Shown here in pieces: positions 16,244-51,399 of a stretch of DNA of 64,000 nucleotides. Location: contig JAMXDE010000004.1 in the NCBI GenBank assembly GCA_026770025.1, positions 682,001-746,000 of the forward strand, in the 5' to 3' direction. The stretch comes from Craspedostauros australis (Eukaryota > Bacillariophyta > Bacillariophyceae > Mastogloiales > Achnanthaceae). The position numbers and the translations under genes are program-made. How positions within the stretch are numbered: position 1 is the first letter of the stretch; every line of letters begins with the position of its first letter. The notes beneath the pieces are model-generated. The model had not been told where the DNA came from. It worked only from the letters and a program-made list of their open reading frames with translations, and ran no database searches.

Positions 16244-17395
16244 AGAGGACTTTCGCATGGTGCCCACAACCGAATAGTATACTCGGGTAAACCGGAGGAT
16301 GGACAATGTTTCCGAGACAGTCGCCACGGATGGATGTGGTGCTCTTTGTGTTGATTAGGTCCAATTCAGATCGCGTGCTACCATCAGAGTGAAAGGACTG
16401 TACCAAACCGACGAGTAAATCCTTTGCCTGCGGTGGCAACGACAACACTTCTCGTCCACAACATACTTACTGGTAATCGTACGTTACGTGGACTAGGTAC
16501 CATCACATGTCACGATGGCCTCGCGCGCAGAGGGGCTTTATGGCCGATGCGATTCTGCGCTTCGCCTTCGCCAAGGGGGAATGGAGGAAGGAAGTGTTTG
16601 CGCTTGCGAAATCCGAAACTGGCGCGAACCAACGCACAAGCGAACACCTGGTCGTGGCACTTCGGTTTGGTGGAGAGGCGCATTGCTCTCTTTGTGATCC
16701 AAACAGGATACCTAGATGAGGTCTCAACCAATGAGTGATCATGCCTATCACCAGAACGCCTCCACAAGGGCATGCACTACGAGTATGGATAGCGTCATCG
16801 TCACGAGCGCAGATTCACGGCGAGGAGGATGGTCTCTTCTTGCTCGTTTGTCGGCTTGCTTGCTTGTTTGCTCGCTTTCTCTTTTCTCTCCCCCAACCGT
16901 CTCGAACCGAACGAGTTGCAGCGCGGAGTGATTGGCTGCCGCCACCAAAGTTGATGAGTTAGGTCGTATCTCCGTGATTTCTGTTTTTGCGGAGTTCATT
17001 CCGTCTTCCGCCTGCTTCGTATTTAGCGAAATAGAACCCCCGAAGGAGCTAAATCGTCGGCAACCAAGAGTGGTGACACCATGTCGCAGTCATCGATACT
17101 TCGCAGAGAACGAGTTCGGTCACGAACTGAACGCTAACACATCCACCCAACATGTTTGTGGTGATGAGAAGTGCCTGAGCGCCACAAAATGGCATCCAAA
17201 GGCGTTACCGTCTCTGCGGCCATCCTGCAATGGTACACACGAACGCTCGCGCCATTTTACCACAGAGCCAGACAGGAAGGATCCATGGGCACAAGGGATC
17301 GAGGACACCGAAGAAACCTCACAAATAAAGTCCTTACCTCATAAATACATACATCACGATAACTCTGCGAGTACTCTCCACCAAAATCTCCAACC
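15858..17395. other. Intergenic, no gene seen
   Basis: 1.5 kb between two plus-strand genes, with a long poly-C run. Open frames in 16424-17408 are short and not protein-like; the promoter of the NTPase gene at 17396 should be in its distal part. Confidence 0.5.
16206..16240. repeat. Poly-C homopolymer (35 nt)
   Basis: Thirty-five uninterrupted C residues, preceded by CTACA and followed by AATAG. The minus strand is a 35-G run able to form G-quadruplexes. The exact length may be unreliable in any assembly. Confidence 0.95.
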
Positions 17396-26648: not shown

Positions 26649-29600
26649 TCATAGACTATTGGATCCGTCGGTGAGGACCGACACTTCATCATCTTCTTCT
26701 TCGCTGCCGAATTTGGTTCCTGTCGGTGAAGCGCAGGTGTCGCCGCCTCGTGTCATGGCGTCTTTTGCTTCGCCTGGGGATGCCGCTCCGACCACTGACC
26801 CTACCGATTGTTGGTTGGCGTAGATCAGGCTGTACTCGTTGCGGTAGTCGAACGTCGGGAGCACCCTCCCCGTCACGGTGTTGCGGATTGTGCCAAAGCC
26901 AGGGCTCATGATCACCGTGGCCTTGCCCTGCTTGCCTTCCTGACCTGCGGAGTACAACTGTTCGTTGATGTACTCTCCCCTCCTCCGTTTCAGGTGATCC
27001 AGCTTGAGGGTGGCACCCCACTGGCTGTAGTACTCGTAGGATCGGCTGAAGAGCTCGACGATAACGCGCTCGCGACAGAATGACGCTTTCGTCAGCATGT
27101 ACTCGCCAGCCAATTCGCAGGCAAGCGCCGCGTCGTGGACGTGGCCACACTCGATGGAAGACAGGATGGCATCTTCGTATGTCTGCTTCACGCGCTTGAT
27201 GTGCTCTTTGCTCGTCACTGTCGTCGTGAGGGCATCGAGTTCTGCTCGCAGGAGCAGCGAGCGGTTTAGGCTGGATTGGCCCTTCTTGTTGCACAGGGTC
27301 CGCATCACCCTCCTCGCGTCCCTCACCTGCTGCAAGTACTTCTTCCTTCCTGTTTGGCGATAGAGTCCAGCAGCTGTCAGGCCGGTGCAAAGGAGGCGCT
27401 GGACAGTGCGTGCGTAGGAGCTGTCACTTTCCATGGTCTGCTTGTGCCGCGCGATGATTGTTTCGGCGATGTCGTACCTTCGAAATAGGACGCAGAGATG
27501 CAGCAGCATGGCGTAGGCCACCCGCACGTCGAGCGTCTCCATGCTTTTGATGTCGCCTGAGCCACCGAACTCTCTGATTGCCTCCCAGTCGATTGGGTTG
27601 TGACCCAGCAGGATGGATGAAAACTTCATGCCTTGGTTCAAGTAGCCTGTCGTCGATGAGACGTTGTAGAGGTGCATCTGGTCGATCAGATCTTCGGAGG
27701 AACGGTGGACGTCCCCGAGCGGGTAGCCTTCCGTCAGCGCGAGGAAGTTGCATGTCTGCCAGTAGCTCAATGCGTCGCTGAAGGCCCCGTGCTCCATGCT
27801 AGACATGTAGATTGGGATGTACGCATTGACGAGAGGTCCTGCGGGTTCGCTCCATGGATGGATGAAGAGCGCGCGGAGGATGTGTGCAAATCCCCTGATG
27901 GATTGGCTCCCGGTTTTGTCCATGATGGTCATCGACAATCTCCCAAAGCGTAGAGCACCTTTTTCATCGCCCATCTTGCCCACGAAGAATCCGTAGCATG
28001 CGTATGCCAAGCCCACATCCTCCGTCAAGCCAACCTTCCGTGATCGAAGAAGGATCGTCAGCGTGGCCAGCATGAAGTGGACGATGGTCTGACTGATGAA
28101 GCTTCGGACCAGCATCTCGCGGAGGAAGACGAGCGGGAGGATGTCGTTCGAGTCGGACACGACCGGTTGGCTCATGATCTGCTTGTCTGTCGTTTTCTTG
28201 ACGTACTTCCGCACCATCAGCATCTTCCTGAATATGTGCAACCCGTACGATCCCCTCGGATAGCTCTTCAGCAACTGAGTCACCTTGCGTCCCAATCGAA
28301 GGCTTTCGTGCTGCTTGTCTTGAGCTCCCAGAGCTTGGATCATGGAGGCGTAGGTTGGGAGCTTTTCGTTGAGCGTCTTGGCATGGTTCAAAACAACTTG
28401 GCTCAATTCGTTGCCCGATTCGAATCGACCCAGCGCGAATTCGATCTTCGCCCGAGCTGTGTACAGCTTGATGTTGAGCTTGTAGTGAGACTTCCACGCA
28501 TCCCGTACCTTCTTCATGGCGGTGTGTGCTGACTGGTAGTACACCGAGGCCTGCACAAGTGCTGCCATGGACAAAGCCAGGTCGCCTGCGTGGAGATTCA
28601 GCTTGGCGATGGAAAGATGATCCTTCGTTGGTACGCTGTTCAAGTGATCCGCCGCTACGAAGAGCAGCGTTTCATCCACGATGTTCCCGTTGGTCATTCT
28701 TGTGGCAACGCTATTCTCGTCATGAGCATCGCCATCCTGATGGCTGTCGCAGTCATCGTCGTCCTCGATGCTGGACTCCAAATTCGATCGAAAATGCTTG
28801 TAGAGACACGTGCCAATACGTGTTCTGAGCTTGCTGCGATCTTCGCCAATCGGCACCGATTCGTACGCTGCCTGCTGGATGCGATCGTGCGCAAAGCTGT
28901 ACGTGCAGCCACCCGTGAAATTGGTGAGCAATCCTTCGAGCACGGCGTCTTCCAACAGTTCTGAGAGTATCTGTTCAGAAATTGTGGAATCGGCGTGAGA
29001 CATGGCGGTGTTGCTGCCGTTGCCATCGCCAATCACGGCTGTCTTGTGATTGGTCAGCACAAGTGCTACTACCATTGGTTGAGCGTTGAGGACCATTTGG
29101 AGTGTGGTCAGGTCGAATGTGGAGCGGATGTAGGCGGCGGAGGAAAGAGCTGCTTGGAGGGCGGGGGAAAGCTGATTCAACTTTTGGGTCATCAGCTCGA
29201 CGATATCGTGTGCCATGGGCAGCGAATGGCTGTCATCGCCAATGCTTCTGCTGTCCGAGTCGTTCCGCTCGGGCCAGTGCCATTCCCATCGGGAGGCGGC
29301 ATGACTGAAAGTCAGGATGTTGGCGTCCTGCATCTGCTCCAGGAGCCGGAGGGTGAAGAACATGTTGCCTTGGGAACGATTGTAGATCTTCGATGTGAAC
29401 GGTTCCAGGTCTTCGATGCTCCGGTTGAGGAGGAACGACAGGCATTCCGCAACCTCCTGGTGCGTGTGATGTGACAGCACGAGTTCGGTCCAGTCCATAG
29501 ATTTTGGCTTCTTGGGCGTGGACGCGTTGGATGTGATGCTCGCGCGTGCGTCTGGAGTCTTGAGGGCGCCAGAATGATCAGTCAGCCCCGTCGGCGCTCG

Positions 29601-30791
29601 AAAGCTGTCCATCATTCTTCGGAGTGGGACTTCCGCGCCCAGCTCCAGGAGATCGGCTGGACTGTGGGGATTGGTGTCCTGACGAATGGCACCGATCAGC
29701 ATGAAATACTTCAGATGGCTGTCGCTGAGGAGCATCGAGATGAGATCGATGCTGACTTGGGAAGACCATTGCAGGTCGTCCAAGAAGAGGATGACTGGCC
29801 GTTTCTTCGTTGAGATGGCGTGAAGCAGCGTCGTGAAGGTGTATCGCAGCTGGTTCCAGACAACGTCAGCCTTGGCCTCGATCTGCCCAACGAGACGGTT
29901 CATCTGTTTGGAGGTGATGGACTGTACAGATCCCGACCTCAGGGATTGGTGCTGGTTGGCCTCGTCTCTGGGGGTGTGGTCGGCGATACTAGTCCCATTC
30001 TTGGAGAACTTGGACATGAGGAAGGGACGAATCGCTGGGACCAGCTTGCCCACGACGGTTGCCTGGGAGCCCAGATGCTGCCGGATGCGCTTTCGAATCC
30101 GCTCCTGCTCTTCGTTCGATGTGGCGCCGACCTGCCGGAAGAAATCGTTGAGAGCCTGGACGATGGCTGAGAATGGGTCGCTGTCCTGGATGTGTTCATC
30201 GGTCTTGCCCCGGATGAAGTAGGGGAGTGGCGAACCAGCCATTCCCTCAGCTTGCGCAGATCTGAACGAAGACGAAGAAGAGTCGCCTCGGGCATTCCCC
30301 CTCGTCTTGCTAGAGATCTTCTTGGGCCTCTCACTGTTCCCATCGATCCCGCCTTTATGAGAAGGCGTCATGGCGTGGTTGTCCGCAGTCGCCTCTTGAT
30401 GCAGATTCGTTGCGAATTGGTCGATCATCTTTGTCTTCCCTGTTCCGCTCGCTCCGCGCACGAAGATCACTGGGACGGAGGACGGAACGCTGTCGGTGCT
30501 ATGTCCGTGAATGGTTGGAGCATCGGGTTGGAGCAGGGCGCTGCCGCGTGCGAGCATGCGATTGTAGCCATCGTGGAGTGCCTGGAGTTCCTTACCGCGG
30601 CCGAGCAATGGGATGGTGGAGATGTTGATCTTGGTCGCCGGTTTGGTGTCACTTCCTCCTTCGTGGTATGCGCTGCTGGAAGGACCATTGTCCATCAAAC
30701 GTGGCCGTGAAGAATCATCGCTGCGGCTTTGGATGGGGGCAGCAATCATGCCGGCGTCAGTAGTGTTGTGCATGTCTGTGGTTGTACTCAT
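26649..30791 (-). CDS. Large STAND-type P-loop NTPase (AAA_16), paralogue
   Basis: 1380 residues from the first in-frame ATG (30791); the frame is open upstream to 30959 but only from a TTG. GRGKELQAL (about 64-72) leads into Walker A GASGTGKT (113-120) and Walker B VILFLDDLQWSS (about 331-342). CTYSFAHDRIQQAAYESVP and LLFVAADHLNSVPTKDH repeat the hallmark block of the paralogue at 17396-21709, and the helical C-terminal half matches throughout (ALACELAGEYML against GIACELAGEHLL). The acidic tail ends SVLTDGSNSL, sharing SVLTD. No output domain is present. It is convergent with the PPR-SMR gene, 258 bp between stop codons. Role as for its paralogue: signalling NTPase by inference only. Confidence 0.85.
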   Translation of the reverse strand: MSTTTDMHNTTDAGMIAAPIQSRSDDSSRPRLMDNGPSSSAYHEGGSDTKPATKINISTIPLLGRGKELQALHDGYNRMLARGSALLQPDAPTIHGHSTDSVPSSVPVIFVRGASGTGKTKMIDQFATNLHQEATADNHAMTPSHKGGIDGNSERPKKISSKTRGNARGDSSSSSFRSAQAEGMAGSPLPYFIRGKTDEHIQDSDPFSAIVQALNDFFRQVGATSNEEQERIRKRIRQHLGSQATVVGKLVPAIRPFLMSKFSKNGTSIADHTPRDEANQHQSLRSGSVQSITSKQMNRLVGQIEAKADVVWNQLRYTFTTLLHAISTKKRPVILFLDDLQWSSQVSIDLISMLLSDSHLKYFMLIGAIRQDTNPHSPADLLELGAEVPLRRMMDSFRAPTGLTDHSGALKTPDARASITSNASTPKKPKSMDWTELVLSHHTHQEVAECLSFLLNRSIEDLEPFTSKIYNRSQGNMFFTLRLLEQMQDANILTFSHAASRWEWHWPERNDSDSRSIGDDSHSLPMAHDIVELMTQKLNQLSPALQAALSSAAYIRSTFDLTTLQMVLNAQPMVVALVLTNHKTAVIGDGNGSNTAMSHADSTISEQILSELLEDAVLEGLLTNFTGGCTYSFAHDRIQQAAYESVPIGEDRSKLRTRIGTCLYKHFRSNLESSIEDDDDCDSHQDGDAHDENSVATRMTNGNIVDETLLFVAADHLNSVPTKDHLSIAKLNLHAGDLALSMAALVQASVYYQSAHTAMKKVRDAWKSHYKLNIKLYTARAKIEFALGRFESGNELSQVVLNHAKTLNEKLPTYASMIQALGAQDKQHESLRLGRKVTQLLKSYPRGSYGLHIFRKMLMVRKYVKKTTDKQIMSQPVVSDSNDILPLVFLREMLVRSFISQTIVHFMLATLTILLRSRKVGLTEDVGLAYACYGFFVGKMGDEKGALRFGRLSMTIMDKTGSQSIRGFAHILRALFIHPWSEPAGPLVNAYIPIYMSSMEHGAFSDALSYWQTCNFLALTEGYPLGDVHRSSEDLIDQMHLYNVSSTTGYLNQGMKFSSILLGHNPIDWEAIREFGGSGDIKSMETLDVRVAYAMLLHLCVLFRRYDIAETIIARHKQTMESDSSYARTVQRLLCTGLTAAGLYRQTGRKKYLQQVRDARRVMRTLCNKKGQSSLNRSLLLRAELDALTTTVTSKEHIKRVKQTYEDAILSSIECGHVHDAALACELAGEYMLTKASFCRERVIVELFSRSYEYYSQWGATLKLDHLKRRRGEYINEQLYSAGQEGKQGKATVIMSPGFGTIRNTVTGRVLPTFDYRNEYSLIYANQQSVGSVVGAASPGEAKDAMTRGGDTCASPTGTKFGSEEEDDEVSVLTDGSNSL

Positions 30792-33578
30792 GTTCGTGTA
30801 ATGAATGTCAGTGTTGGCAGTGTTAGCAGTGGTGGCAGTGTTGGCAGTGTTGGCAAATGATGTGGAGCATACTCTGCTCTGTCTCGATTGTGATTTTGTG
30901 TGCGTGAGGACTTGAGACCTTGATTTGGGCTGCGGGTGAGGATTCCAGTGTTTGAACAACAGAGCGGTTGCTTCCGAAATAGTTGCCGTTTTGTGGCCTC
31001 ATGCGGAGATCACTGGGCCCATTCTCTTTCCTCCCATCGCCTGCGTTATCGTTGCACATCTCCAGACATGTTTGGATGGTCTTGCTCTTCTCACCAGTAT
31101 CGTGTGAGTTCTCTCCTTCTGCCATAGGTCTCTGTCTGTTCCATTGATGCCTTGGCGCTTCGAGCGAAGGCACCCACGAACAACAAACGGAGGCCAGAAT
31201 CGGAAACGAGGTGAGCAAGACAACGGTCCCTCTTGGGGTCTTGCTCACACATTTCTGCATGTTCGTTGGGGGAGGCGGACTTCGCCGGTGGCCGCCTTTG
31301 ACACCCAGGAGTTGCTGGAACAGCATCGGAGCGCTTTGTATTGCATCGCACTTATGGTGCCCTGCGAGGCACTTTTGGTAAAAAGCACCGTAAGACCTGG
31401 AAGAAGCCGTTTGATGTTGGTGCTTAAATGTCAATACTCTCGCGGAACAGGAAGCGACTTTCACGTTTGTATTAGTCGTTGCAGTCCGGAAAGCTCACGG
31501 GATGAAGCAAGCGAAATAGTAGTATTGTTGGAGAATCTGTTTGCATCCTCCCGTTCCCTTCGATATTTTCGTTCCTCCTTTGGATGTCCACAGATGTGTG
31601 GGTCTGTCCTTCTGTGGATCTCCTTTGGGGGCGCCAATAGATCCGACCGATCACGGAAGTACTCAGAGAGCGAAGCTTGTATGGGTAGTCCTCTCATGAC
31701 ACTAATAACAGTGCCTCCTTGTTGCTATATTGGCTTCGTTGATATTCGCATGTGCGTTCACCGCCCTTGCCAAAGCGAGATTGACACCAACAAACAGGCG
31801 GCGTCTGCTGCCATTCCCGTGTCTGCATTGCGAAACAAACAGAAACGGAGCATCCTTTGGCAAGGGCATGCCTTCACGCGCGAATGGAGAATCGAAACAC
31901 GACAAGTGTCTTCAACAACTGTCTCGGTTCACCTGTCACTCACGCGCTTGCACCGGTCGTACTCACAGAACCGCGGAGACAGAGAGGTGAACATCACGCA
32001 GTCGGCCGATTAGAGTAGAAAAGATTGCCTGCAGTTTGACACCGATGACACTCTTGACAGATCTTCGTAGTCGCGTGAAACCCGTGACCCACGATCGTCT
32101 GTCTGGCCTCTTCCTTCCACGACTCCGGTCTTCATTGGCTTCATTTGTGGTCGAACGAGTCATATGTGAATCGGATCATGAATTAATCGCATGAGTCCAT
32201 TTAAACGGACTATTACGAACAACAATATATAACACGGACAATTTCCATGTGGCAGACGTTAAGAGATGCGCGAGGTGGACAAAGCGCCATCACACAAAAA
32301 TGCACACAAACACACAGAAGCAAAAGAAGAAATGGAACAGATGCCAGCCAACTCACAATTTCGTCGATCACTCGGCGCTGCTCGACAACAATTGGACCAT
32401 TCGGAATTGAACCGAAAGTGAGACGGTGCTCCAATCAGATGACGATGCAAACTTGTGTTGGACGTGAGCAGTGATCGCGCGATAACAGATGACGATGAAA
32501 TGAGCAGCGCCACTCAGCAAATCGAGTGCAAACACACCAACGAAACCAACGGTCGCCATCTCGGCATCACGATTGGTTCAAATTGTTGGCAGTACTCGTA
32601 TGTATTACGGTGTTGGAGATGGAATGCATGCCACGATGCAGTTCTCTGAGGCGAATGCTATGTATTGGTACACTCCCACATGCATACTCCAACCTCTGAA
32701 CTTGAGGCGATCAAACTGATCATCACCACGATTCAATCACATCGATCAATCTACGGGATACTCGTACGTGCGAGTATGGCACAAGTGCGACGAGACACAA
32801 GTTCTCCAACACCTTCTGAAGCCGGCAGCAGACATGGATCATTCGACGAATTGACGCATGGTTGTGACGATTGAAAACCAAGCGGAAGGAGTTGAGCGAC
32901 CACACATCATGCCATGCCATGCCATGACTTGTGACTGAATGCTTAAGTGAGCAAACAATTGACACGTTCCCTCCCAGTTGGAACGATTGCATGAAGACAA
33001 TTCGGATGATGCCTTCCAACCCACCAGACATCTCATTGGCTCTCCGTGAATGGAGAATGCCCAATGCAATGCATGAGAGTGCCATGATCATGCGGATACC
33101 GAATCGGAACAAGCTGCACTACTCTGCCGGTCTTTCCATTCCCACAAGGACTGCCAATGCAAAGCCACCAGACTTGCAAAGCCACCAAGCTATGGTACAT
33201 CGCTCCTACATAGAGAAGAGATCGGAAGGATGAATCCCACCTGAGCACATGCAGACAAGGCATCATCGATACAAGTTCACATCCGTGTCCGCATCTGCAT
33301 CCGCATCGACACCAACACGACGACTTGCAACTTCAAAAGCGTTGCTACGTCGAGACGCATTCATGGAGGGAAAGGAGAGAGATCATTCCGTACACTCTCA
33401 ACTTCGAACCTGGTCATAAAACAAAACACTCAGACTCGCACTCCACATCATCACAACCCATTCACCGCAAGCTCAACAAGTGATCGTGTCAAAGACGAAC
33501 ACCAGCCCAAATCAAACCAACATCATCAACTCGAATCATCACACAACAGCCAGCTGCTCTGATACACAGCCAAAGATA
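30792..33578. other. Intergenic, no supported gene
   Basis: 2.8 kb between the divergent NTPase (minus) and DUF6824 (plus) genes. A 289-codon frame at 31144-32013 (plus) starts at TTG and its translation is Arg/Ser/Cys-rich without conserved motifs; treated as chance. The interval holds both promoters, but no site was assigned. Confidence 0.45.
30809..30853. repeat. 9-bp tandem repeat, five copies
   Basis: Five near-identical copies of CAGTGTTGG just upstream of the ATG of the minus-strand NTPase, so in its 5' leader or promoter. The copies differ at one or two positions (CAGTGTTAG, CAGTGGTGG). Confidence 0.9.
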
Positions 33579-34703
33579 ATGACGATGATATCAACAACCA
33601 TGAATCACACCGCATGCCCATCCGAACACAGCGATTGGAGCAGCGCCTTCCTCCCACCCCGCCATGCTTTTGCAAACAGTGGCGCGAGCAAGCAGAAGCA
33701 ACGGATCATCTTGTCACGCCCCTACCCATCGCCTCAGCCAAGTGCAAAATCGAATAGTCAGCAAGTCGGACGACAGAATCATGTATCGCCGACAAAGCTG
33801 TCGAAGGTGGAACAGCCATCGGCTCAATCCACTTTGATTCCTGTGAAGATCGAAGCATCAGAGCACCCAGCAGCGGCATCCATCACATCTTCCACGACGT
33901 CTCAAGACTCGCAAGTTCATGGATCGGAAACCGTCGCAGAGCCCTCCGATGACGTCTTGCGAGACATTGACATCGTGTGCGGCAGAGGTACGAACACCCA
34001 GTATCACCCCGGTAACGAAGCCTTCCGATCGTTGATCAAGCAGCACCAGGTGCAGTACATCCATGCGAGAAGAGCTGAGAAGGCATTGATCGCCACGAAG
34101 ATCGTGTTCATGATCAAATCCGATGGTTCCAGGTTCATGAAGAAGGACAAGGCCCGCAACATCTGGTACGATATCGGTGAGCGCAAGTCGTACGAGAAGG
34201 TATGCCAATCCCTCCGAGACTTTGCACCGGAGATGAGGCGAAGGATGATCGCATCAAAGCTGGCAATGCAGCGAGGACGTTCGCAGAACGTGCAACGTTG
34301 CTCAACGCCATCAGCCGGCAACAATCGCACCCAAACATTCGATCGCAGCGACCGAGATACGTCGAGCCACAAGCGTGATGCAACACTCGCAGCAACGCAA
34401 CGAAAATCAAGCGCTGTCTCGGCATCATCGCAGCCGCTTCGACCGCATACGCCATTCGCTGCTCCATTCCAACCAACGCACCATGCTCGGAGGCATGCGA
34501 TGAATGGATCATGCGATGCTTTGAGGGTCAAGAGCAGAACGAATCAGTTTGCGGATCGCCGGTGGAACCGCGAAGTTCTGGCCAGCAGCCGCAGAGGAAC
34601 GCATTCGGTATCAACTGAAATGGAATCAGCGCACCGACGTAGCGAAGATAGCAATCTGCCCTGGGACAAGGAGAATCAGGCACCCGTCGTCGTTGGCGTA
34701 TGA
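33579..34703 (+). CDS. DUF6824 domain protein (diatom type)
   Basis: 374 residues from ATG 33579; the frame extends to 33480 only through a GTG. The N-terminal 125 residues are Ser/Thr/Gln-rich. The DUF6824 domain lies at about 128-222: DIDIVCGRGTNTQYHPGN, then FRSLIKQHQVQY, IATKIVFMIKSDGSRFMKK, WYDIGERKSYEKVCQSLRD. This is the pattern of a family expanded in diatoms and other stramenopiles whose biochemical role is not established; nuclear or DNA-binding roles have been guessed. After it the protein is Arg/Ser/His-rich and disordered. It has a single exon as read; an upstream non-coding or short exon cannot be excluded. Confidence 0.85.
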   Translation: MTMISTTMNHTACPSEHSDWSSAFLPPRHAFANSGASKQKQRIILSRPYPSPQPSAKSNSQQVGRQNHVSPTKLSKVEQPSAQSTLIPVKIEASEHPAAASITSSTTSQDSQVHGSETVAEPSDDVLRDIDIVCGRGTNTQYHPGNEAFRSLIKQHQVQYIHARRAEKALIATKIVFMIKSDGSRFMKKDKARNIWYDIGERKSYEKVCQSLRDFAPEMRRRMIASKLAMQRGRSQNVQRCSTPSAGNNRTQTFDRSDRDTSSHKRDATLAATQRKSSAVSASSQPLRPHTPFAAPFQPTHHARRHAMNGSCDALRVKSRTNQFADRRWNREVLASSRRGTHSVSTEMESAHRRSEDSNLPWDKENQAPVVVGV

Positions 34704-42125: not shown

Positions 42126-42848
42126 GCAGACAGGGAGAGGTACTCGTCAACGGAGAGATGGTCGGTGCGTGGGATTCGGATTGCGCGGATTGATCGTAGC
42201 ATCGCTATCACAAATGTCAGCCACCGCTGCAACAACAGCAGCCACAGTGACTGTAACATAAATAATATATATATTATCCTAGCTGGTACTCTACGCTGCT
42301 CCACTCCGTGCACTTTGATCGTGCCGCATCCCGAGCAATATGGCGCCGCGTGGTTTCGCGGTGCTGCGACAGGAATGCGGCTGGGTATAGCAAAGCCCCC
42401 TGGCCGAAAGATCTTCAAAGGCCGGGATCGCACCACAACGAAGCGCTGCCAAAGGTGGAGCGAGCACGTAATGTCCATACCCGTACTCCTCCTTGGTCAT
42501 GTGTCGCGCCATGCCCGTAGTCGTGGACAGCGTCGACTGACCAAAAAGGCGCCGCCATGAGCCGCAACTGAGGAAACTAAGACAGCGACTCAGGTTGTCA
42601 TAGATCGTAGGTAAATTGGCGAAGGGGCGATCAGGAGCTTCTCGGCTGTGCGCATTATTGCGTTTCACGAACTGGCAATGGCCTATGAGCAATTCTACCA
42701 AATGGTATAATACTATATTCCACAGGCGCGCATGTCGGAGCCTGCAGGAGCACACATGAGCATACTAGTACCGCAGTCGGAAGGCAAGGACAAGCATTCG
42801 CAGAAATAGTGTCCTCTCCAGGCAATTTTCTATTGTGCTTGTATTGTG
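42126..42848. other. Intergenic, 3' flank of TPS gene and LINE insertion side
   Basis: 723 bp with no plausible gene. An AT run (AATAATATATATATTAT) at about 42262-42278 follows the TPS stop codon. The LINE inserted at the right end of this interval. Confidence 0.5.
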
Positions 42849-42864
42849 TGTCTAAAGAACTGTT
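42849..42864 (+). repeat. Left target-site duplication of LINE (16 bp)
   Basis: TGTCTAAAGAACTGTT, identical in all 16 positions to 51270-51285. The flanking bases differ (GTG before and ATAG after), which fixes the duplication length. Confidence 0.96.
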
Positions 42865-42950
42865 ATAGTTTCGGAACTCCGACAAACCAAACCAAAGAAA
42901 AATAAAAACTAATTAATACCCTAACACAACACAAACAACAGCAAAGCAAA

Positions 42951-45563
42951 ATGACTTCGAACGACGAACCCAACACGAGCAACCGCGAAGAGACGAAGGC
43001 AGAAGATGGCCCAACCTTGCCACCTCCCACCAAGGAACCTGACAAACCTGCGAACCCAAGAGAGGACGATACAGGCAACCATCATCGCGCCCGACGACAA
43101 GCAAAAAGAGCCATCCCTTACGATGGAGGAACCGAGGAGAACGACCCCGACGACGTGTCCATCACCTACAAGCCAAGATCCAGCACGTTCAAGACCGCGG
43201 CCAACAAGACCGGCATCGACATCACGCCATTCGCACGAGCAACAGGAGACGGATCCATCGACAGATCAGCAAAAGCAGCATGGAGAGCCAGAGCAATCTG
43301 GTATAACAAGGATGAGGCGACGGCCGACCGCGAAAACCCGACCATCAAACAGTGGGAGCACTTCTTCAGAGATCTCGCAGACGGAAGGGTCACATCATTC
43401 GGGCCCATCACGCTGCCCAACAGAGACCCCACAAGAATGAGGCTCCTGCAATTCGTCATCAACGTTGCATCCACCGATCCCCACGAGGTATTCAAAGTAC
43501 ATCTCAACGACGACGGCACGGTACGAACGGCAAGAGCAGTCAAAGTATGGAAGGCCGCGAATCGACTCATGGGCTCCAACTACGATCTGGGAGCAGCACC
43601 TCTCGCAGACAACGACATCCACATCGACACAATGGAAGGCCTCACACTCCAGACGGAAGGCGCGGAAGCGAGCACAGCCAGGATGTCCACAAGCCAAGCA
43701 TTTGCAGCCATGCCAATCGACACAACCACGGGATCCATCAGCACAGACAGCGAGTCGTACACCAGCCGCCAGCCGTCCAAACGCACCAGATTCAAATCTC
43801 CGAAACAGACAACCGACATGCCACGAGTCAGCCAGAACAGCACGAACAACTCGCAATCTTCAGGGACGACAAGCAGCAACGATTCGTCAACTGACTCAGG
43901 CGTGACCAGACACAGAAGTGGCCCTCGGAACCCTGCCAACCGCAAGCCGTCCACAGACGACAACTCCGTCAGCTCAGATGAGGAATCCAACACATCCCAG
44001 GCAAAGATAGCACCACCGCGACACGAGCACACCACCAGATTCACAATCAAACTCAACGTCGACAGAACCGAAGACGACACCACAGCCGCAGTGCGAGAGC
44101 GCATCAAGCGATGGTTCCGGCAGGTCCGACGAATCGATCCTACAGCGGTGATCCTCCCATGGAGAGAGTCGGCCAACACAGGTCCCCACATCGCCCACTC
44201 AGGACAAATTCCAGAGAGAATGGAGGACCTCAGAACCTTCTTTCAAGGATTGCGAGCGCCATCCGGGGCAACAGGAATCACGTACGCGAAAGTCCGCATC
44301 ACCACCAGAGATGATCCCTTCGACATCACGGCAGACCGCAACGCGGAGCTCAACCCATACTACTACAACGAGCATGAGGGATTGTACAAAGCCCAGCTCC
44401 AAGACGCAGAAGAGGTGAAAGAGATCGGCTTCCTACTATACTCTGGAGGATTCACAGACGTGGACAGCACAGTGGAAATCATAAACAGGAGCTTCCGACG
44501 AACAAACAGCGACATCAGAGTGGGCGGAAAGATGAAGAACATCATCCAGGTCAGCGACGAAACCAGAGAAAAGTACAGAGAAGGCAAGCGACACTGGACA
44601 GTCCAACCTTGGAGAGCGGTGAAGCTGGAAGTCGAAAGATCACAAGCTTACGCTGCGGTCGAAGAAGTCGCAAACCTCTTTAACACACGAGCGGAGAGAC
44701 CGGGAGCCACCAACTTCCGGTTCTTGCCCGACAAGAAGTTTGAGCAAATGTCCCGAAAGAAGAGCGAGTTCCGAGACGGCCTCATGGCAAAACACCAGGC
44801 CATACTTGCAGTGATTGAGTACTCGGACTCCGATGGAGTACTGCACCTGGACAAGAAAGTCAAAGGCAAGGACAACCGCTCCATCACTCTCCGTAAACTC
44901 ATACTCCGAGAGACAACCAACGACGGCAAACGGATCTTCCACAGTGTGGACAGAGCCCGAGGCACCGACGACCAAGTCGTGGCGCACTCATTCCCCGAAT
45001 ACCTGGAACCAGCAAAGCATTTCATGAGCCTCCTGCCTGCAATCGCCCGACACAAAGTAGGCCCCAAAGCCGAAAAGTGGTTCAGTCCGGAGGTGTGGAT
45101 TGCCAGCCTCAACATTGTGTACGACCCAGCGACCAACGACTACACGTCCCCTGACACGCACAACCTGGAAGACATCGCCGATGAAGAGTTCCCCGCCAGT
45201 GTGATCATCACCAATATCCCCGATATGATGCCCACCACTCACAGGCCAGCGGCTCTTGACAATCGAAGCCTGTTCAATCCCAACTCGACGATCGGCACCG
45301 CCAACAGGTCCATCGACTCAGCGTACACAGCTGCCCCCAATCTGACCACAGGAGACCAAACAGACAGCGGATCCAACGCACCGAACACCCCCAACACAAC
45401 CTCCCACACCACCGAAGGAATCCTGCGTACCGGCGCCAACACAAGATACAACCAGCCCCAGACAAGGGAAGCACAACTACTGGCACAGGTGCAAGCACTC
45501 CGGCGAGAACTTGGCAAACCCGACGGCGACCCTCCGCAGCCCAATGGAGGCCAGTCACCATGA
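42951..45563 (+). CDS. LINE ORF1 protein
   Basis: 870 residues from ATG 42951. In LINEs, ORF1 products bind element RNA and assist target-primed insertion; that role is inferred here. The N-terminal 110 residues are Glu/Pro/Asn-rich and basic. A second disordered Ser/Thr/Asn segment lies at about 235-355. The globular core (about 355-760) has TTRFTIKLNVDRTEDD, DPTAVILPWRE, YAKVRITTRDD, RFLPDKKF and NRSITLRKLIL, the blocks shared with the partial minus-strand gene at 1-2051. I see no CCHC knuckles or named domain. The C-terminal ~30 residues look like a coiled segment (REAQLLAQVQALRREL). The stop codon overlaps the ORF2 start (ATGA). Confidence 0.92.
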   Translation: MTSNDEPNTSNREETKAEDGPTLPPPTKEPDKPANPREDDTGNHHRARRQAKRAIPYDGGTEENDPDDVSITYKPRSSTFKTAANKTGIDITPFARATGDGSIDRSAKAAWRARAIWYNKDEATADRENPTIKQWEHFFRDLADGRVTSFGPITLPNRDPTRMRLLQFVINVASTDPHEVFKVHLNDDGTVRTARAVKVWKAANRLMGSNYDLGAAPLADNDIHIDTMEGLTLQTEGAEASTARMSTSQAFAAMPIDTTTGSISTDSESYTSRQPSKRTRFKSPKQTTDMPRVSQNSTNNSQSSGTTSSNDSSTDSGVTRHRSGPRNPANRKPSTDDNSVSSDEESNTSQAKIAPPRHEHTTRFTIKLNVDRTEDDTTAAVRERIKRWFRQVRRIDPTAVILPWRESANTGPHIAHSGQIPERMEDLRTFFQGLRAPSGATGITYAKVRITTRDDPFDITADRNAELNPYYYNEHEGLYKAQLQDAEEVKEIGFLLYSGGFTDVDSTVEIINRSFRRTNSDIRVGGKMKNIIQVSDETREKYREGKRHWTVQPWRAVKLEVERSQAYAAVEEVANLFNTRAERPGATNFRFLPDKKFEQMSRKKSEFRDGLMAKHQAILAVIEYSDSDGVLHLDKKVKGKDNRSITLRKLILRETTNDGKRIFHSVDRARGTDDQVVAHSFPEYLEPAKHFMSLLPAIARHKVGPKAEKWFSPEVWIASLNIVYDPATNDYTSPDTHNLEDIADEEFPASVIITNIPDMMPTTHRPAALDNRSLFNPNSTIGTANRSIDSAYTAAPNLTTGDQTDSGSNAPNTPNTTSHTTEGILRTGANTRYNQPQTREAQLLAQVQALRRELGKPDGDPPQPNGGQSP

Positions 45564-48500
45564 TAGGCAGCCACAGACGGGCACAGTCCAGCCCGGACAC
45601 CGACGGACCCAACACGCCAGGGAATTCGAGTTCGGATGAATCGAATCTCCAACAACAACACCTCGGCCAAACCACCAACCAAAAGGCCAACACCCAAATC
45701 AGGATCGCCACCCTGAACGTAGGAAGCCTACCAACCGACCCTACGGACCCCAAAAACGACGACCTATGGCAAACCATACGCCAACACCACATTGACATAC
45801 TGATGATGACGGAAGTGGGCATCAACTGGAGCAAGACCCCGTCGGACTCCACGCTTGCCCGCAGAGCTGACAGACAGCTACGCATGGCGAAGATTGCCAC
45901 AGCACACTGTCACACAGACAGCGACAGCCCACGACAATGGGGCGGCACCGCCGTACTTTCCCACGGAAACATCGCAGGCCGAGTCCTCTCCAGCAGCAAC
46001 GACCCCGGAAAGTGCGGCAGATGGGCAAGCGTACTACTCCAGGGACGACAGGGCATCAAAGTCCGAATCGCCTCAGTTTACGTCCCCACCAAGTCCACCC
46101 AAACCTCTGGAACCGTCTACAACCAACAAGCTGTCAAAGCCGCCCAGCGCCAATCGACACTGGACCCCATCGATCTGCTCATCGCCGACCTGCAAGCACA
46201 AATAGCACGATGGCAACAAGCAGGCGAGACAGTGATCATCGGAGGTGACGTCAACATGGACGTGCGACGGTCCAAGATCACCAACATGCTGCTCGCCGAA
46301 GGCCTCCAAGAACACCACACCAACAACATACGACACCCGTATGCCACCATGATCAGAAACAGACGACGGACCCCCATCGACGGAATCTGGGCCACGAACG
46401 ACGTCCAACCCAATCAAATGGGGCTGACACCGTACGGCAGCTGGGACCACCGCATGGTGTGGTTCGACATCAGCACGAACCACCTATTCGGGCACACCAA
46501 GCAGCCAACCCCACCGTTCCGAGGGAGACGACTCCAACTCAGCCAACCCACCACGGTCAGAAGATACGTGCAGGTATACGAAAGCCAAGCTAACTCGCTA
46601 CATCTTCTGGAACGGGCGCAATCTCTGAACCAAGCAGTCAGCAATGACCAGATGACACCGCTGCAGATTCAGACACTCGAGAAAATCGACAACGACAGAA
46701 CTCAGGCCATACTCCAAGCAGAACGCAAGTGCCGCAAGATCAAAGCTGGGAAGGTGCCCTTCTCACCGATAGTGTCCAAGCTGAGGTGGGAACATCAGTT
46801 CTGGACTCTCAGCATCAAGAGGAGACAAGGCCACAACATCAAAGGGCGCACAATCGACAAGGCGAAGAAGAAGGCCCACATCCAGCAACGCACGAAGCAC
46901 ATGACAACGGCAGAGATGCACCGGCACCGCAACGCGGCGTGGAAGGCATATCAACAAGAGAAGAAACACGCCACTGAACACCGGAGGTCATTCTTGGCCG
47001 ACGACGAAGACGAGGTGGCCAACACCGGAGGCGACACAGCCAAATACCGAGCCCAGCTGCTACAGCGAGAGGAGACCAAGGCAACATACCGAAGAATCCG
47101 GTGGTCCCTGCAGGCGGATGACTCCAATGCCCAAGTGTCCATGGTCATAGATGACGGCCCAGGGGGTGAGAACAATCTGCTAACCGCAGGCGAAGAAGTG
47201 GCCCGAGCGTGCTGCAAGACCAACATTGACAAGTACAGCCAGGCGTGGCAAGCGGAAGTCTGCCAGCGACCACTTAAGCGCAGCCTGGGGCGATTCGGAT
47301 CCAGCCCAGCCGCCACCGCCATACTCAACGGCATCATCCCGTCGCAGATACGCAACAACACCAGCGACACCCTTCACTCACTCCGGCGGCCCCAAAGAGC
47401 CACACCGTGGCCCCCCGACCTTCTACATATCAGCCAGGAAGACCATTCGCGAGGATGGGCACGCATCAAGGAAAGCACGTCATCGGGTCCTTCCGGAATA
47501 CACTTCGGGTGCTGGAAGGTCAACGCAACCATCCCCGCCCTGGCAACCATCGACTCCATAATGAGAGCGATCCCGTACCGCACAGGATACAGCCTCAAAC
47601 GATGGCAGCAGTGCATCGACATACAGCTCCGGAAAAAGCCAGGCAACTTGGCAGTGACCAAAACGAGGACCATCGGGCTCATGGAAGGCGACTTCAACAT
47701 GAACAACCGACTCCTTGGCAAACAAGCCAGGTCGCATGCAGAATCCAATCTCACCCTGGCAACGGAGCAGTTCGGCAGCCGCAAGGCGCACACAGCCCAA
47801 GAAGTGCTACTCAACACAGTCCTCATCGACGACATCGCAAGGATCACAGGCGCACACTATGCCATATGCTCCAACGACGCAAAAGGGTGCTACGACCGCA
47901 TTGCCCACCCCATCTTCAGCCTAGCCCTTCAACGGCAGGGAGTGCCTACAGCACCCATCACGAGCACTCTTCGCACCCTCCAGTCGATGACCCACCGCAT
48001 CCGCACGTCAGCCGGAACATCAGTTTCGTCCTACTCCGGCAAGCAGCGCCACAACTACCTTCAAGGACTGGTCCAAGGGCTCGGATCCGCACCGACAGGG
48101 TGGCTGCTCATCAGCTCCGCCATTATTGATAGCATGAGAGCCAGAGGGTACGGCCTCAACCTCCCCGACCCCATCACTCGCGATGGCCATACCATCATGG
48201 GCACCGCGTACGTCGACGACACCAACATCATGCAAAGCCTGCCCCCCACAACACCCAACGAGCAAGCGCAATCCTTCCAGGCAGCCGTGGACCACTGGGA
48301 CGGCCTCCTTACCGCCACTGGCGGGGCACTGGAGCCATCCAAGAGCTTCTGGCAGCTCATACGGTTCAAGTGGCAGCGCACGAAGTGGGTCTACGACAAC
48401 AAGATGCCCACCACGAACGTCTGCATGAACACTCCGACCGGAGAACGCACCCAACTAGCCCTCACCGGCCCCAGGTCGGCCTCCAAATACCTTGGCATGG

Positions 48501-51118
48501 TGTCCCGGAGAGACGGACGCCAGTCCGAACACACGCAATATCTGCTCCAGAAATCCCTCACCTGGGCGGCACGCATCCGAGCGTCTCGCATCACCCGACA
48601 AGACACAGAGGTGGCTATCAAATCCGTACTTTGGCCATCGCTGCAATACTCGTCTCCGGCAACCACAATGTCCACAGACCAATGGAACAAAGTGATGAGC
48701 ACAGCACTCACGACCGCACTGCCGGCCATGGGAATCGCCCGCACCATTGCACGCCAGTACGTGTTCGGCCACAAAGACGCCATGGGAATGGGAGTACTGC
48801 ACCTGTACACAGCCCAGGTGACGTCTCACTTGGAAATGGTTCTCAAGCACTTTGAACGCCCCACAGAAACAGGACGACTACTACGCACCTCACTGCATCA
48901 TCTCGAGCTGTGGACGGGATTGCCGGGGCTACTTCAACAGCATGAGAAAGCGTGGGGAAACTGGACCTGCTCCGGGTGGTGGCAAAACACATTCAAATCG
49001 GCGTCCAAGCTCGGCATCCAGATGACAGACCAATCCCACCCATCCAAAATCCCCCGGACCGGAGACAGCCCCATCATGAACCTCGCCATCACTTCCGGCC
49101 TCCATCGACAGACTCTGGCGCTCGCCAACGTTGCTCGACTACACCTGCGAGTGCTCTGGCTGTCAGACATCTCCACGGCCGACGGAAGTCAGATACGACT
49201 GACGATCCTACAACGCGAAAGGCTGCCATCGAGAGGCATCACCTGGCCCAGCGTTGGCAAGGTCACCAAGTCGGCGTGGGAGGCGTGGGAAGCGGTCCTA
49301 TCAACAGTGGCGGCCCCAGACCAGCCAGGATGGCACCTACGGACCCAACTCGGGCCATGGCAAGGCGCGCCGGCAGGGCGTGACACCCAACTACCGGATG
49401 GCACCATCTCCCCCTTCGACCGACCGGCCCCAGCAGCGGCCACGGACCCTCGCCCGGCCCTCGTGGTTGACCGCGCTCTTCGCAGATCCGGCATGGCCAT
49501 CACATCCAGCGGGAGAATCGACAGATCGCCAACGCCCGCCACCATACGAGAATGGCTGCATCGGAAAGGCCCCGCAGCGGAGGCAATGCTCCCCGATATA
49601 CACATCCGAGGCGATGTCCATGCAATAGTTCGGTCCATCGCAGCCGGCACCTGTGTGGCATGCAGCGATGCCTCGGCCAAAGACCACAAAGGATCTGCCG
49701 CGGCTATCATCCAGAGCGGCCTGCAGGACGATGCGCACCAGATCGTGGCGACAGCCGCCGTTCCCGAGGGCTCTCACCCAACCGACTCCAACAGAGCGGA
49801 GCTTGCGGGGGTCCTCATATCCATTTGGCTCATCACCTCGGTAGCAGAGTGGTCCGACATCCAAGGTAGCGCCACCGTCGCCTGCGACAACAACAGGGCA
49901 CTGCAGGCGATAGACCCTGACAGGTGGCCGGAGCCACGAAAGAAGGACTTCGACCTGTGGTCCGAGGTGGTCCGCAACCTTCGCCAGACCAGAGTCCGAT
50001 TCACTCCCCAGGAGGTCAAGGGGCACGCAGACGACTCCGGTGAACCCATCACCGCCTGGGAGTCGCTGAACGTCCTCGCCGACGGCTATGCAGGGTACCA
50101 CTGGGATCGGTTCTATGCAAGCAGCTCCCGAGCCCCAGCAATGGTGGTGCCTACGGAAGGATGGACCCTAAGCACCGCTGCCGGTCCCCTCACCGATCTC
50201 GACTACTGGACAGTCTCGTCTCTCATCGACGATGGCGGCATCAAAAAGAAGTGGTGCGAAAGATGGGGAGCCTCCAGCCCGACGAACGTAGATTGGGAGC
50301 CCATGCGCTCGGTCTCCCGGAGATGGAGCGGAGGCAAGCGGCGAACGTTGCTCAAGCTCATGACGGGCACCGGCGCCAGTGGCAAGAACATGCAGCGACG
50401 CCAGCAGGAGCAATCCGCAGAATGCCCCAGGTGCGGCAGGCCGGAAGACAACACACACATCCTCATGTGTCCCAGCGCTGCGAGCCAGTCCATTTGGGCC
50501 AAAGCCATCCTCAAAGTGCGGTCAATCGTGAGACCGCCCACCACCCCACCCGAAGTCGCCCAGCTAGTTTGCACGGCAATCAAGCGCATCACATCTGGAG
50601 GCATTCCTCCCTCAGGCATAAGGAAGTCGCCCACTCAGAACATCCAGGTGAGACAGGCCAACATCGGTTGGGTAGCTCTAATCTGGGGCGGCTGGTCCAC
50701 CTCGTGGCGAGACCAGGCCCCTCCAATGGCTCCTCACCGGAGACGACGTGCTCCCAAGCTGCTCCGAGACTGGCAAGTGAGCATCACAAACCTCATGTGG
50801 CATACCGTCCTGCAACAGTGGCATGACCGCAACGAAACCAAGGCGGAGCAGACGTCGCAAGGCATGACGGCTCTCCTTCAACAACAGCTTCACCGCCTCC
50901 GTACAACACCCACCGACGCGATCCCAGCAGTGCTGCGACCGCTATGGTCCAACCCACCAGCAACAGCCCAAATCGCCGCCCTAGTCCCGTGGGTCCAAGC
51001 GATGCAACAAGGACTCGGCCCCGCGGCACCGGACATCCCGACCGTACTCACCAACTGGATGAAAAACCAGCGACGTCGCCACCGAGCACCAGCCACTCGC
51101 CCCTCGAACCCAGCCTGA
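45560..51118 (+). CDS. LINE ORF2 polyprotein: endonuclease, reverse transcriptase, RNase H
   Basis: 1852 residues from ATG 45560, whose ATG overlaps the ORF1 stop by one base shift (ATGA). APE-type endonuclease at about 47-300: IRIATLNVGS, MMTEVGIN, IGGDVNMD, PIDGIW and a final WDHRMVWF. Reverse transcriptase at about 620-950: RTIGLMEGDFNMNNR, SNDAKGCYDRI (catalytic Asp), QGLVQGLGSAPTGW and the active-site YVDD at 884-887. RNase H at about 1365-1495 keeps all four acidic positions: SDAS, NRAELAG, ACDNNRAL, KGHADD. A CCHC-like finger (C1622, C1625, H1633, C1637) follows. No stop or frameshift is seen, so it could be active. The product would copy element RNA at a nicked target. Confidence 0.96.
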   Translation: MIGSHRRAQSSPDTDGPNTPGNSSSDESNLQQQHLGQTTNQKANTQIRIATLNVGSLPTDPTDPKNDDLWQTIRQHHIDILMMTEVGINWSKTPSDSTLARRADRQLRMAKIATAHCHTDSDSPRQWGGTAVLSHGNIAGRVLSSSNDPGKCGRWASVLLQGRQGIKVRIASVYVPTKSTQTSGTVYNQQAVKAAQRQSTLDPIDLLIADLQAQIARWQQAGETVIIGGDVNMDVRRSKITNMLLAEGLQEHHTNNIRHPYATMIRNRRRTPIDGIWATNDVQPNQMGLTPYGSWDHRMVWFDISTNHLFGHTKQPTPPFRGRRLQLSQPTTVRRYVQVYESQANSLHLLERAQSLNQAVSNDQMTPLQIQTLEKIDNDRTQAILQAERKCRKIKAGKVPFSPIVSKLRWEHQFWTLSIKRRQGHNIKGRTIDKAKKKAHIQQRTKHMTTAEMHRHRNAAWKAYQQEKKHATEHRRSFLADDEDEVANTGGDTAKYRAQLLQREETKATYRRIRWSLQADDSNAQVSMVIDDGPGGENNLLTAGEEVARACCKTNIDKYSQAWQAEVCQRPLKRSLGRFGSSPAATAILNGIIPSQIRNNTSDTLHSLRRPQRATPWPPDLLHISQEDHSRGWARIKESTSSGPSGIHFGCWKVNATIPALATIDSIMRAIPYRTGYSLKRWQQCIDIQLRKKPGNLAVTKTRTIGLMEGDFNMNNRLLGKQARSHAESNLTLATEQFGSRKAHTAQEVLLNTVLIDDIARITGAHYAICSNDAKGCYDRIAHPIFSLALQRQGVPTAPITSTLRTLQSMTHRIRTSAGTSVSSYSGKQRHNYLQGLVQGLGSAPTGWLLISSAIIDSMRARGYGLNLPDPITRDGHTIMGTAYVDDTNIMQSLPPTTPNEQAQSFQAAVDHWDGLLTATGGALEPSKSFWQLIRFKWQRTKWVYDNKMPTTNVCMNTPTGERTQLALTGPRSASKYLGMVSRRDGRQSEHTQYLLQKSLTWAARIRASRITRQDTEVAIKSVLWPSLQYSSPATTMSTDQWNKVMSTALTTALPAMGIARTIARQYVFGHKDAMGMGVLHLYTAQVTSHLEMVLKHFERPTETGRLLRTSLHHLELWTGLPGLLQQHEKAWGNWTCSGWWQNTFKSASKLGIQMTDQSHPSKIPRTGDSPIMNLAITSGLHRQTLALANVARLHLRVLWLSDISTADGSQIRLTILQRERLPSRGITWPSVGKVTKSAWEAWEAVLSTVAAPDQPGWHLRTQLGPWQGAPAGRDTQLPDGTISPFDRPAPAAATDPRPALVVDRALRRSGMAITSSGRIDRSPTPATIREWLHRKGPAAEAMLPDIHIRGDVHAIVRSIAAGTCVACSDASAKDHKGSAAAIIQSGLQDDAHQIVATAAVPEGSHPTDSNRAELAGVLISIWLITSVAEWSDIQGSATVACDNNRALQAIDPDRWPEPRKKDFDLWSEVVRNLRQTRVRFTPQEVKGHADDSGEPITAWESLNVLADGYAGYHWDRFYASSSRAPAMVVPTEGWTLSTAAGPLTDLDYWTVSSLIDDGGIKKKWCERWGASSPTNVDWEPMRSVSRRWSGGKRRTLLKLMTGTGASGKNMQRRQQEQSAECPRCGRPEDNTHILMCPSAASQSIWAKAILKVRSIVRPPTTPPEVAQLVCTAIKRITSGGIPPSGIRKSPTQNIQVRQANIGWVALIWGGWSTSWRDQAPPMAPHRRRRAPKLLRDWQVSITNLMWHTVLQQWHDRNETKAEQTSQGMTALLQQQLHRLRTTPTDAIPAVLRPLWSNPPATAQIAALVPWVQAMQQGLGPAAPDIPTVLTNWMKNQRRRHRAPATRPSNPA

Positions 51119-51269
51119 TGCTGACCCGACCTCAGAGCAGACGCCTCCACACACCGACACCTAGTGTCAATCCGTTCCCGCTGCGTGCATACACGTTGAA
51201 TCAACGAGGCGGAATAAAAGCGCCCTCGGCGCATGACTTAACAGTTATAATCCGTGTGTTATATATATA
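51119..51269 (+). promoter_or_regulatory. LINE 3' UTR with stem-loop and TA tail
   Basis: A perfect 5-bp stem with 3-nt loop (GCGCC-CTC-GGCGC) lies at 51220-51232 right after AATAAAA, and the element ends in TTATATATATA. Such structures can be recognised by the reverse transcriptase; that role is inferred. Confidence 0.6.
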
Positions 51270-51285
51270 TGTCTAAAGAACTGTT
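51270..51285 (+). repeat. Right target-site duplication of LINE (16 bp)
   Basis: An exact copy of 42849-42864, directly following the TA-repeat end of the element. Confidence 0.96.
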
Positions 51286-51399
51286 CCTCAAGGCCGACGC
51301 ACGGTTGTCGACGAGGGAACTCTGCATCAGTGTATGCGTGCATGCGTGCTTCTGTATGTTCGTGTGCGCGCATGCGTGTACTCGCATGGTGCCGGCGAC

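Follow-up and report, generated by a model that had tools for sequence, protein, structure and literature searches.

Stringent-type long interspersed nuclear elements (LINEs) are the closest described counterparts of the locus presented here. Two reports describe in these elements an RNA 3′ end made of a structured module plus a short repeat (PMC4176376, PMC3747384), a protein from the second open reading frame (ORF2) that binds the 3′ stem-loop via the region between its endonuclease (EN) and reverse transcriptase (RT) domains (PMC4176376), and short terminal repeats that probably take part in slippage as reverse transcription begins (PMC3747384). In the zebrafish examples ZfL2-1 and ZfL2-2, each element recognises only its own stem-loop (PMC4176376). 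The window analysed in this work, a stretch of 64,000 nucleotides from contig JAMXDE010000004.1 of Craspedostauros australis to which all positions below refer, quite likely carries at 42849-51285 a complete and recently inserted LINE of this stringent type, with an APE-type endonuclease and an ORF2 protein that would pick its template by 3′ structure before target-primed reverse transcription (TPRT). A first-pass annotation of the locus left out its main feature, a conserved and covarying 3′ RNA module, as well as a conserved 5′ end; judged from the comparison of copies, constraint is strong on both ends of the element RNA. Whereas this kind of LINE is already known, the novelty lies in the module and in how well co-resident families conserve it, and no description of the module was found in the literature searched, of which coverage was partial.

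The conserved 3′ module

51169..51269, + strand: conserved 3′ RNA module (tail alignments, genome pattern search, covariance model)
51173-51176/51203-51206, + strand: helix 1 (RNAalifold, one double-change cell)
51181-51187/51192-51198, + strand: helix 2 (RNAalifold, covariation)
51208-51211/51221-51224, + strand: helix 3 (RNAalifold, covariation)
51234-51237/51244-51247, + strand: helix 4 (RNAalifold, covariation)
51260-51269, + strand: terminal (TA)5, part of the 3′ module region

A genome search with the 3′ end of the window element gave 40 scored tails matching its last ~100 nt. Beyond eight near-identical copies, identity is 85-92% for 30 of these tails and 97-98% for L034 and L035. In 12 relatives with ORF2 proteins 65-75% identical, the tails keep 87-92% identity and the fourfold-degenerate sites of ORF2 are 34-41% identical, composition alone predicting 30-31% (five pairs checked); L016, with its in-frame stops masked, gives 67% amino acid identity and a fourfold identity of 0.35, and the tail of L018 is the locus L039. 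A degenerate pattern of the module, with up to three mismatches allowed, fits 73 places in the genome, 39 exactly and 34 with 1-3 mismatches (33 of the latter were fetched, the remaining one being L044); the reversed control yields no match. For eleven matches, the ORF1 gene of a more distant LINE is found 5.7-6.4 kb before the module; nine belong to group B (ORF1 42-46% identical) and two to group C (ORF1 27%), group A being that of the window element. The short terminal repeat typical of stringent elements follows the module as (TA)n in group A and in three group-C tails and as (CAA)n in group B, with a further divergent tail (L094) ending in TTATTTATT; it is degenerate in some old copies, and the number of TA repeats differs between copies. 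In the window element, the 3′ terminus is (TA)n and not a poly(A) tail, the form expected with the relaxed recognition of mammalian L1-like LINEs.

RNAalifold, applied to 34 group-A tails, gives four helices. In these tails alone, 2 of 19 pairs carry double changes, which is matched by 212 of 500 shuffles. A covariance model built from them recovers 66 of 68 sources, the misses being L010 and L018, with tails outside the fetched stretch. In the 66-row alignment (61 distinct rows), which is fitted to the model and so biases pair counts towards it, and whose rows are related, 97.0% of the cells are paired and 9 of 19 pairs have changed on both sides. The double-change cells number 82; shuffles give 23.2 ± 3.4, and none of 500 reaches 82. 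When the partners are slid, pairing falls to 27-54%. Double changes affect one of four pairs in helix 1, three of seven in helix 2, one of four in helix 3 (nine cells against 1.6 expected) and all four in helix 4, and by this comparative evidence three of the four helices covary. Ten representatives below 80% identity, taken by themselves, pair in 180 of 189 cells and have double changes in 9 of 19 pairs.

Two other foldings were considered and rejected. A rival hairpin, 51220-51224/51228-51232, has two double-change cells against 1.4 expected, that is, no covariation beyond shuffles, and an alternative basal stem finds marginal support, its double-change cells being reached by 43 of 500 shuffles. 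Outside the genome, Rfam recognised no family in 42800-51300 (best E 0.53), a protein search of a virus collection gave no match, and the 16 stretches of that collection fitting the degenerate pattern are at chance level (best covariance score 12.4 bits, E 0.62).

Tails this alike may reflect template sharing, a shared factor, or a constraint stronger on the module than on the proteins. As a tentative possibility, LINE families whose proteins are down to 33% identical, and which share this near-frozen module, may mobilise one another's RNAs, or may all rely on a single host factor for its reading. The ORF2 protein is probably what recognises the module, by analogy with the tested elements. A different and rather unlikely explanation is that the module is a transcript 3′-end signal, for cleavage, stability or export by host factors, and that RT begins at the TA repeat and shows little specificity for the template. 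It would account for the AATAAA-like stretches inside the module (GAATAAAC, GGAATAAAAG), and the loops and linkers, about as conserved as the stems, would fit one host factor common to the families. However, the second AATAAA is AATCAAA or AATGAAA in many tails, including those of copies with an open ORF2 (L014, L015, L017, L011), the stems covary across groups, and in the tested LINEs of the source cited above it is the ORF2 protein that recognises a structured 3′ end beside short repeats (PMC4176376).

Template switching or gene conversion between families, rather than selection, could also have made the ends alike, and within the group of the window element heads and tails are indeed far more alike than the ORFs. 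We consider this improbable, given that the likeness ends at the module edge, the match starting at about base 268-273 of the 370-base query for nearly all tails beyond the nearest relatives, and that the tails of groups A, B and C differ from one another, with compensatory changes.

The surroundings of 50 tail loci were also checked. Seventeen have at least ~500 nt of upstream sequence, 16 of which follow an ORF2, and 33 are too short. The remaining one, L050, is the 3′ end paired with L010; it has no ORF2 directly upstream and lies ~3 kb from the ORF2 of L010, a gap most simply due to a nested insertion. A repeat with ~35-bp inverted ends (L130:1416-3642, L131:1631-3647) holds a degenerate ORF2 C-terminus plus the 3′ module and has the look of a DNA transposon with a captured LINE end; the sequence just after its module has 17 genome matches, and at least six of the 73 tails lie inside this repeat. 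Four further sets of tails (L077/L096/L100, L087/L092, L086/L099 and L045/L046) have common downstream flanks, which indicates spreading via duplication or inside other repeats and not by retrotransposition.

Element ends, copies and insertion sites

42849..42864, + strand: left target-site duplication (exact 16-mer, two copies in the genome)
51270..51285, + strand: right target-site duplication (exact 16-mer, two copies in the genome)

The 16-mer TGTCTAAAGAACTGTT borders the element exactly on both sides. A third occurrence is absent from the window, even with two mismatches allowed (chance expectation 0.01), and the count in the 74.8 Mb genome is exactly two, so that the perfect duplication proposed by the first-pass annotation stands; the 16 bases were also looked for inside the other copies and occur in none. 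The interval 42849-51285 takes in both duplication copies, and the element body between them, whose ends the duplication fixes as had been claimed, runs from ATAG at 42865 to the final A of (TA)5 at 51269.

A protein search for further copies, in which 25 of 587 candidates were scored, revealed one family of eight copies, the window's included, as the first-pass annotation had suggested looking for. Their pairwise differences amount to 2-6 over 7190 bases (mean 4.5, 28 pairs), a comparison that spans the end of ORF1, ORF2 and the 3′ untranslated region (UTR) and leaves the first ~1.2 kb of the element outside the count, and they point to a recent burst. The window element itself has 3-6 differences over 7198 compared bases to the seven others, each of the eight has both ends and its own duplication at a different site, and the insertion can thus be regarded as recent, in line with the earlier claim. 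Searches with the 5′ and the 3′ end each recover the identical eight loci at 99-100%, which indicates that none of them is truncated. In one of the eight, L005 (C31:138-8542), which is situated near a contig end, ORF1 is split between two frames.

More widely, 28 of 29 head-bearing copies were paired with their 3′ ends (C3:3417223 being unpaired), their completeness being a matter of selection, since they were found through their heads. The longest exact stretch common to both flanks measures 12-20 bases in 26 of the 28, a few of which may belong to the element's own ends, and the sites are unrelated; duplications variable in sequence between copies are typical of LINEs moved by TPRT. The 756 mismatched flank pairings give at most 10 bases (three reach 10 and 37 reach 8), which makes the 26 duplications secure and the other two imperfect. 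That the flanking repeat of the window element is a chance or assembly artefact, for which no point was found in favour, can practically be discarded, with two occurrences in 74.8 Mb, a window chance expectation of 0.01 and 26 of 28 paired copies exceeding every mismatched pairing. TG directly follows the TA run in 17 of 28 copies by script, and in 18 of 28 once L017 is added by reading the rows, the script having stopped inside its tail and its duplication beginning with TG; duplications starting with TG in about 18 of 28 copies suggest a preference for nicking at CA on the bottom strand.

For 11 of the 40 tails (L035, L036, L041-L049), no head exists among the 29; they may be truncated, rearranged or diverged. 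In L035 the homology ends about 740 nt before the module, and a duplication looked for at this locus was not found; it is possibly a 5′-truncated copy, rearrangement being the alternative. At six places (C4:231455-247987, C22:277773-294650, C33:412328-436457, C11:1911227-1927497, C2:1464350-1480712 and C3:3391870-3417354) 16-26 kb separate the 5′ and 3′ ends of seemingly single LINE copies, for which nested insertions of about 8-17 kb are the simplest explanation.

At the window locus, the left flank of the insertion is single-copy in the genome and the empty site with joined flanks is absent from the assembly at up to three mismatches, so the assembly shows the filled site only. On the upstream side, ORFs for trehalose-phosphate synthase and phosphatase end at 42125, and downstream an opposite-strand ORF has its end at 51400; inserted between these positions, the element interrupts neither neighbouring ORF. 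Elsewhere in the window, a gene at 33420-34703 has a DUF6824 domain (E 6e-27), which we take to be typical of, or abundant in, diatoms, and which fits the diatom-like genome assumed in the first-pass annotation. Two paralogous ORFs of ~1450 aa lie on opposite strands at 17363-21709 and 26649-30998 (28% identity, E 2e-162), the first with an AAA_16 ATPase domain.

Coding capacity and a possible route of mobilization

42865..42950, + strand: 5′ UTR of 86 nt starting with ATAG (29 genome matches to 42865-43000)
42871-42882, + strand: possible terminal hairpin UCGG-AACU-CCGA (alignment of heads)
42951..45563, + strand: ORF1, 870 aa, open, no family recognised (56 genome stretches match, 100% to 25% identity)
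45560..45563, + strand: ATGA, ORF2 start codon overlapping the ORF1 stop codon (comparison with other copies)
45560..51118, + strand: ORF2, 1852 aa, open, with EN, RT and RNase H-type motifs and a CCHC motif
45707..46423, + strand: APE-type endonuclease domain (Pfam PF03372, E 7.4e-9, above cut-off)
46718..46873, + strand: basic patch between EN and RT, about aa 386-437, candidate tail-binding region (alignment)
47633..48346, + strand: reverse transcriptase with YVDD (Pfam PF00078, E 9.8e-10, above cut-off)
49667..50083, + strand: RNase H-like region, D-E-D-H-D invariant in a 6-protein ORF2 alignment
50423..50470, + strand: CCHC motif, downstream of the RNase H-like region (alignment)

Both ORFs are open in the window copy, as previously stated. 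The ORF1 protein matches nothing in Pfam, NCBIfam or the PDB sequences (E up to 1), and no PDB sequence matches ORF2 (E up to 0.1) or the ORF2 profile (E up to 1). The ATGA junction is found at the equivalent position in 23 of 24 other copies (L002-L025), the exception, L022, having ATGTTAG; this is also the form in the single group-B locus read, and the single group-C locus read has ATGATAA. Tandem stop codons end ORF1 (TGA TAG, 45561-45566), with TGA TAA at this place in the group-C locus L112.

As in LINEs generally, EN and RT are encoded together in ORF2. Among 13 relatives, at E up to 1, the endonuclease is found in all and RT in 10, and zf-RVT is weak in three (best E 0.12). The basic patch is kept even in the 33%-identical ORF2 protein. 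The catalytic motifs, all of which had been reported as present, hold for EN and RT, which exceed the Pfam cut-offs, but RNase H stays below them and stands on motif conservation. The alignment of six ORF2 proteins comprises four from group A, one from group B and one from group C (47% and 33% identical to the window ORF2, one read each), and its invariant residues make an RNase H downstream of RT likely, although the support from hidden Markov models is weak: the best Pfam RNase_H score (E 0.017) falls on a fragment of the relative L111, and hhalign against E. coli rnhA places E, D and H in register, at a probability near 4%. The CCHC motif lacks its second C in the group-B protein of L111. 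The element is likely autonomous.

At the 5′ end, the first 136 bases have 29 genome matches at 88-100%. The motif TCGGAA-Y-TCCG is kept in 28 group-A and four group-B heads; a fifth group-B locus fetched, L107, is without it, and two group-C loci compared start differently, with TATAAAAACG. The hairpin alone folds weakly (z -1.56), and the conserved 5′ end may act as a promoter or have a role in the RNA. A pairing between this hairpin and the 3′ module was set aside on account of its shortness.

Termination-reinitiation is known from other LINEs, and the stop-start overlap ATGA fits such a mechanism, by which the ORF2 protein would be made after ORF1. This protein would then bind the 3′ module, probably via the basic region between EN and RT, a role proposed from the zebrafish ZfL2 work (PMC4176376). 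EN would nick the bottom strand, in most cases so that its 3′ end is CA, and RT would begin within the TA repeats and copy up to the 5′ end of the RNA. Finally, RNase H would remove the RNA template, and the duplication would arise from a second nick at a distance of about 15-18 bp.

Several observations weigh against a stringent LINE of this kind, or against the strength of its evidence. Helix 1 has one double-change cell only, and in addition to the bias of the fitted and related rows, at least six rows of the alignment are copies inside another repeat, so that the cells overstate independent events. Single sequences fold with mild stability (z -1.1 to -3.5, and +0.24 for L087), and seven of eight favour the rival hairpin 51220-51224/51228-51232, which competes with helix 3. 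With the pattern at up to three mismatches, three of the 12 ORF1 loci in the 42-46% class (C14:1630780, C4:3136455, C16:1134895) show no module at the usual distance, and in the 25-27% class the same holds for six of eight (C12, C28, C14:615174, C18, C5, C40). No short interspersed nuclear element (SINE) sharing the tail was found among the 50 tail loci, 33 of them too short upstream to judge. Two of the 28 paired copies share only 10 and 8 exact flank bases, lengths also reached by mismatched pairings, and Pfam recognises no RNase H in the window's own protein.

Comparison with known LINEs

The locus offers a well-delimited and recently active stringent-type LINE whose ends are exactly known and whose 3′ module exists in dozens of natural variants. 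It can now be tested if the tail is read by the ORF2 protein or by a host factor, and if co-resident LINE families compete for templates or share them. The covariance model could also help to locate LINEs and their ends in further algal genomes, with no repeat library needed.

A structured 3′ UTR recognised before TPRT is also a feature of R2, whose endonuclease is restriction-like and whose target is fixed, in rRNA genes. The endonuclease of the present element is instead of the APE type, and the flanks of 28 copies are unrelated. RTE elements, on the other hand, usually lack a long ORF1 and RNase H-type motifs, and both are found here. RTE-like LINEs of Thalassiosira pseudonana and Phaeodactylum tricornutum are nevertheless comparable as non-long-terminal-repeat (non-LTR) elements of diatoms (PMC2806351). 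The RNase H-bearing L1 elements of oomycetes and plants are non-LTR elements with EN, RT and RNase H in stramenopiles (PMC5348765), comparable to the present element in so far as its RNase H is likely, whereas the present element is without a poly(A) tail. Other LINE groups bearing an RNase H domain downstream of RT are the I-like and Tad-like ones. The closest likeness in the arrangement of the 3′ end is to stringent LINEs of the L2/CR1 kind, such as ZfL2-1, ZfL2-2 and UnaL2, which have a 3′ stem-loop followed by a short repeat other than poly(A) (TGTAA in UnaL2) and EN and RT in ORF2 (PMC4176376, PMC3747384). Unlike these, the present element has RNase H-type motifs and no SINE partner was found for it in the tail loci checked; and in comparison with ZfL2-1 and ZfL2-2, its module comprises four helices over about 80 nt and is little changed between families residing in one genome.

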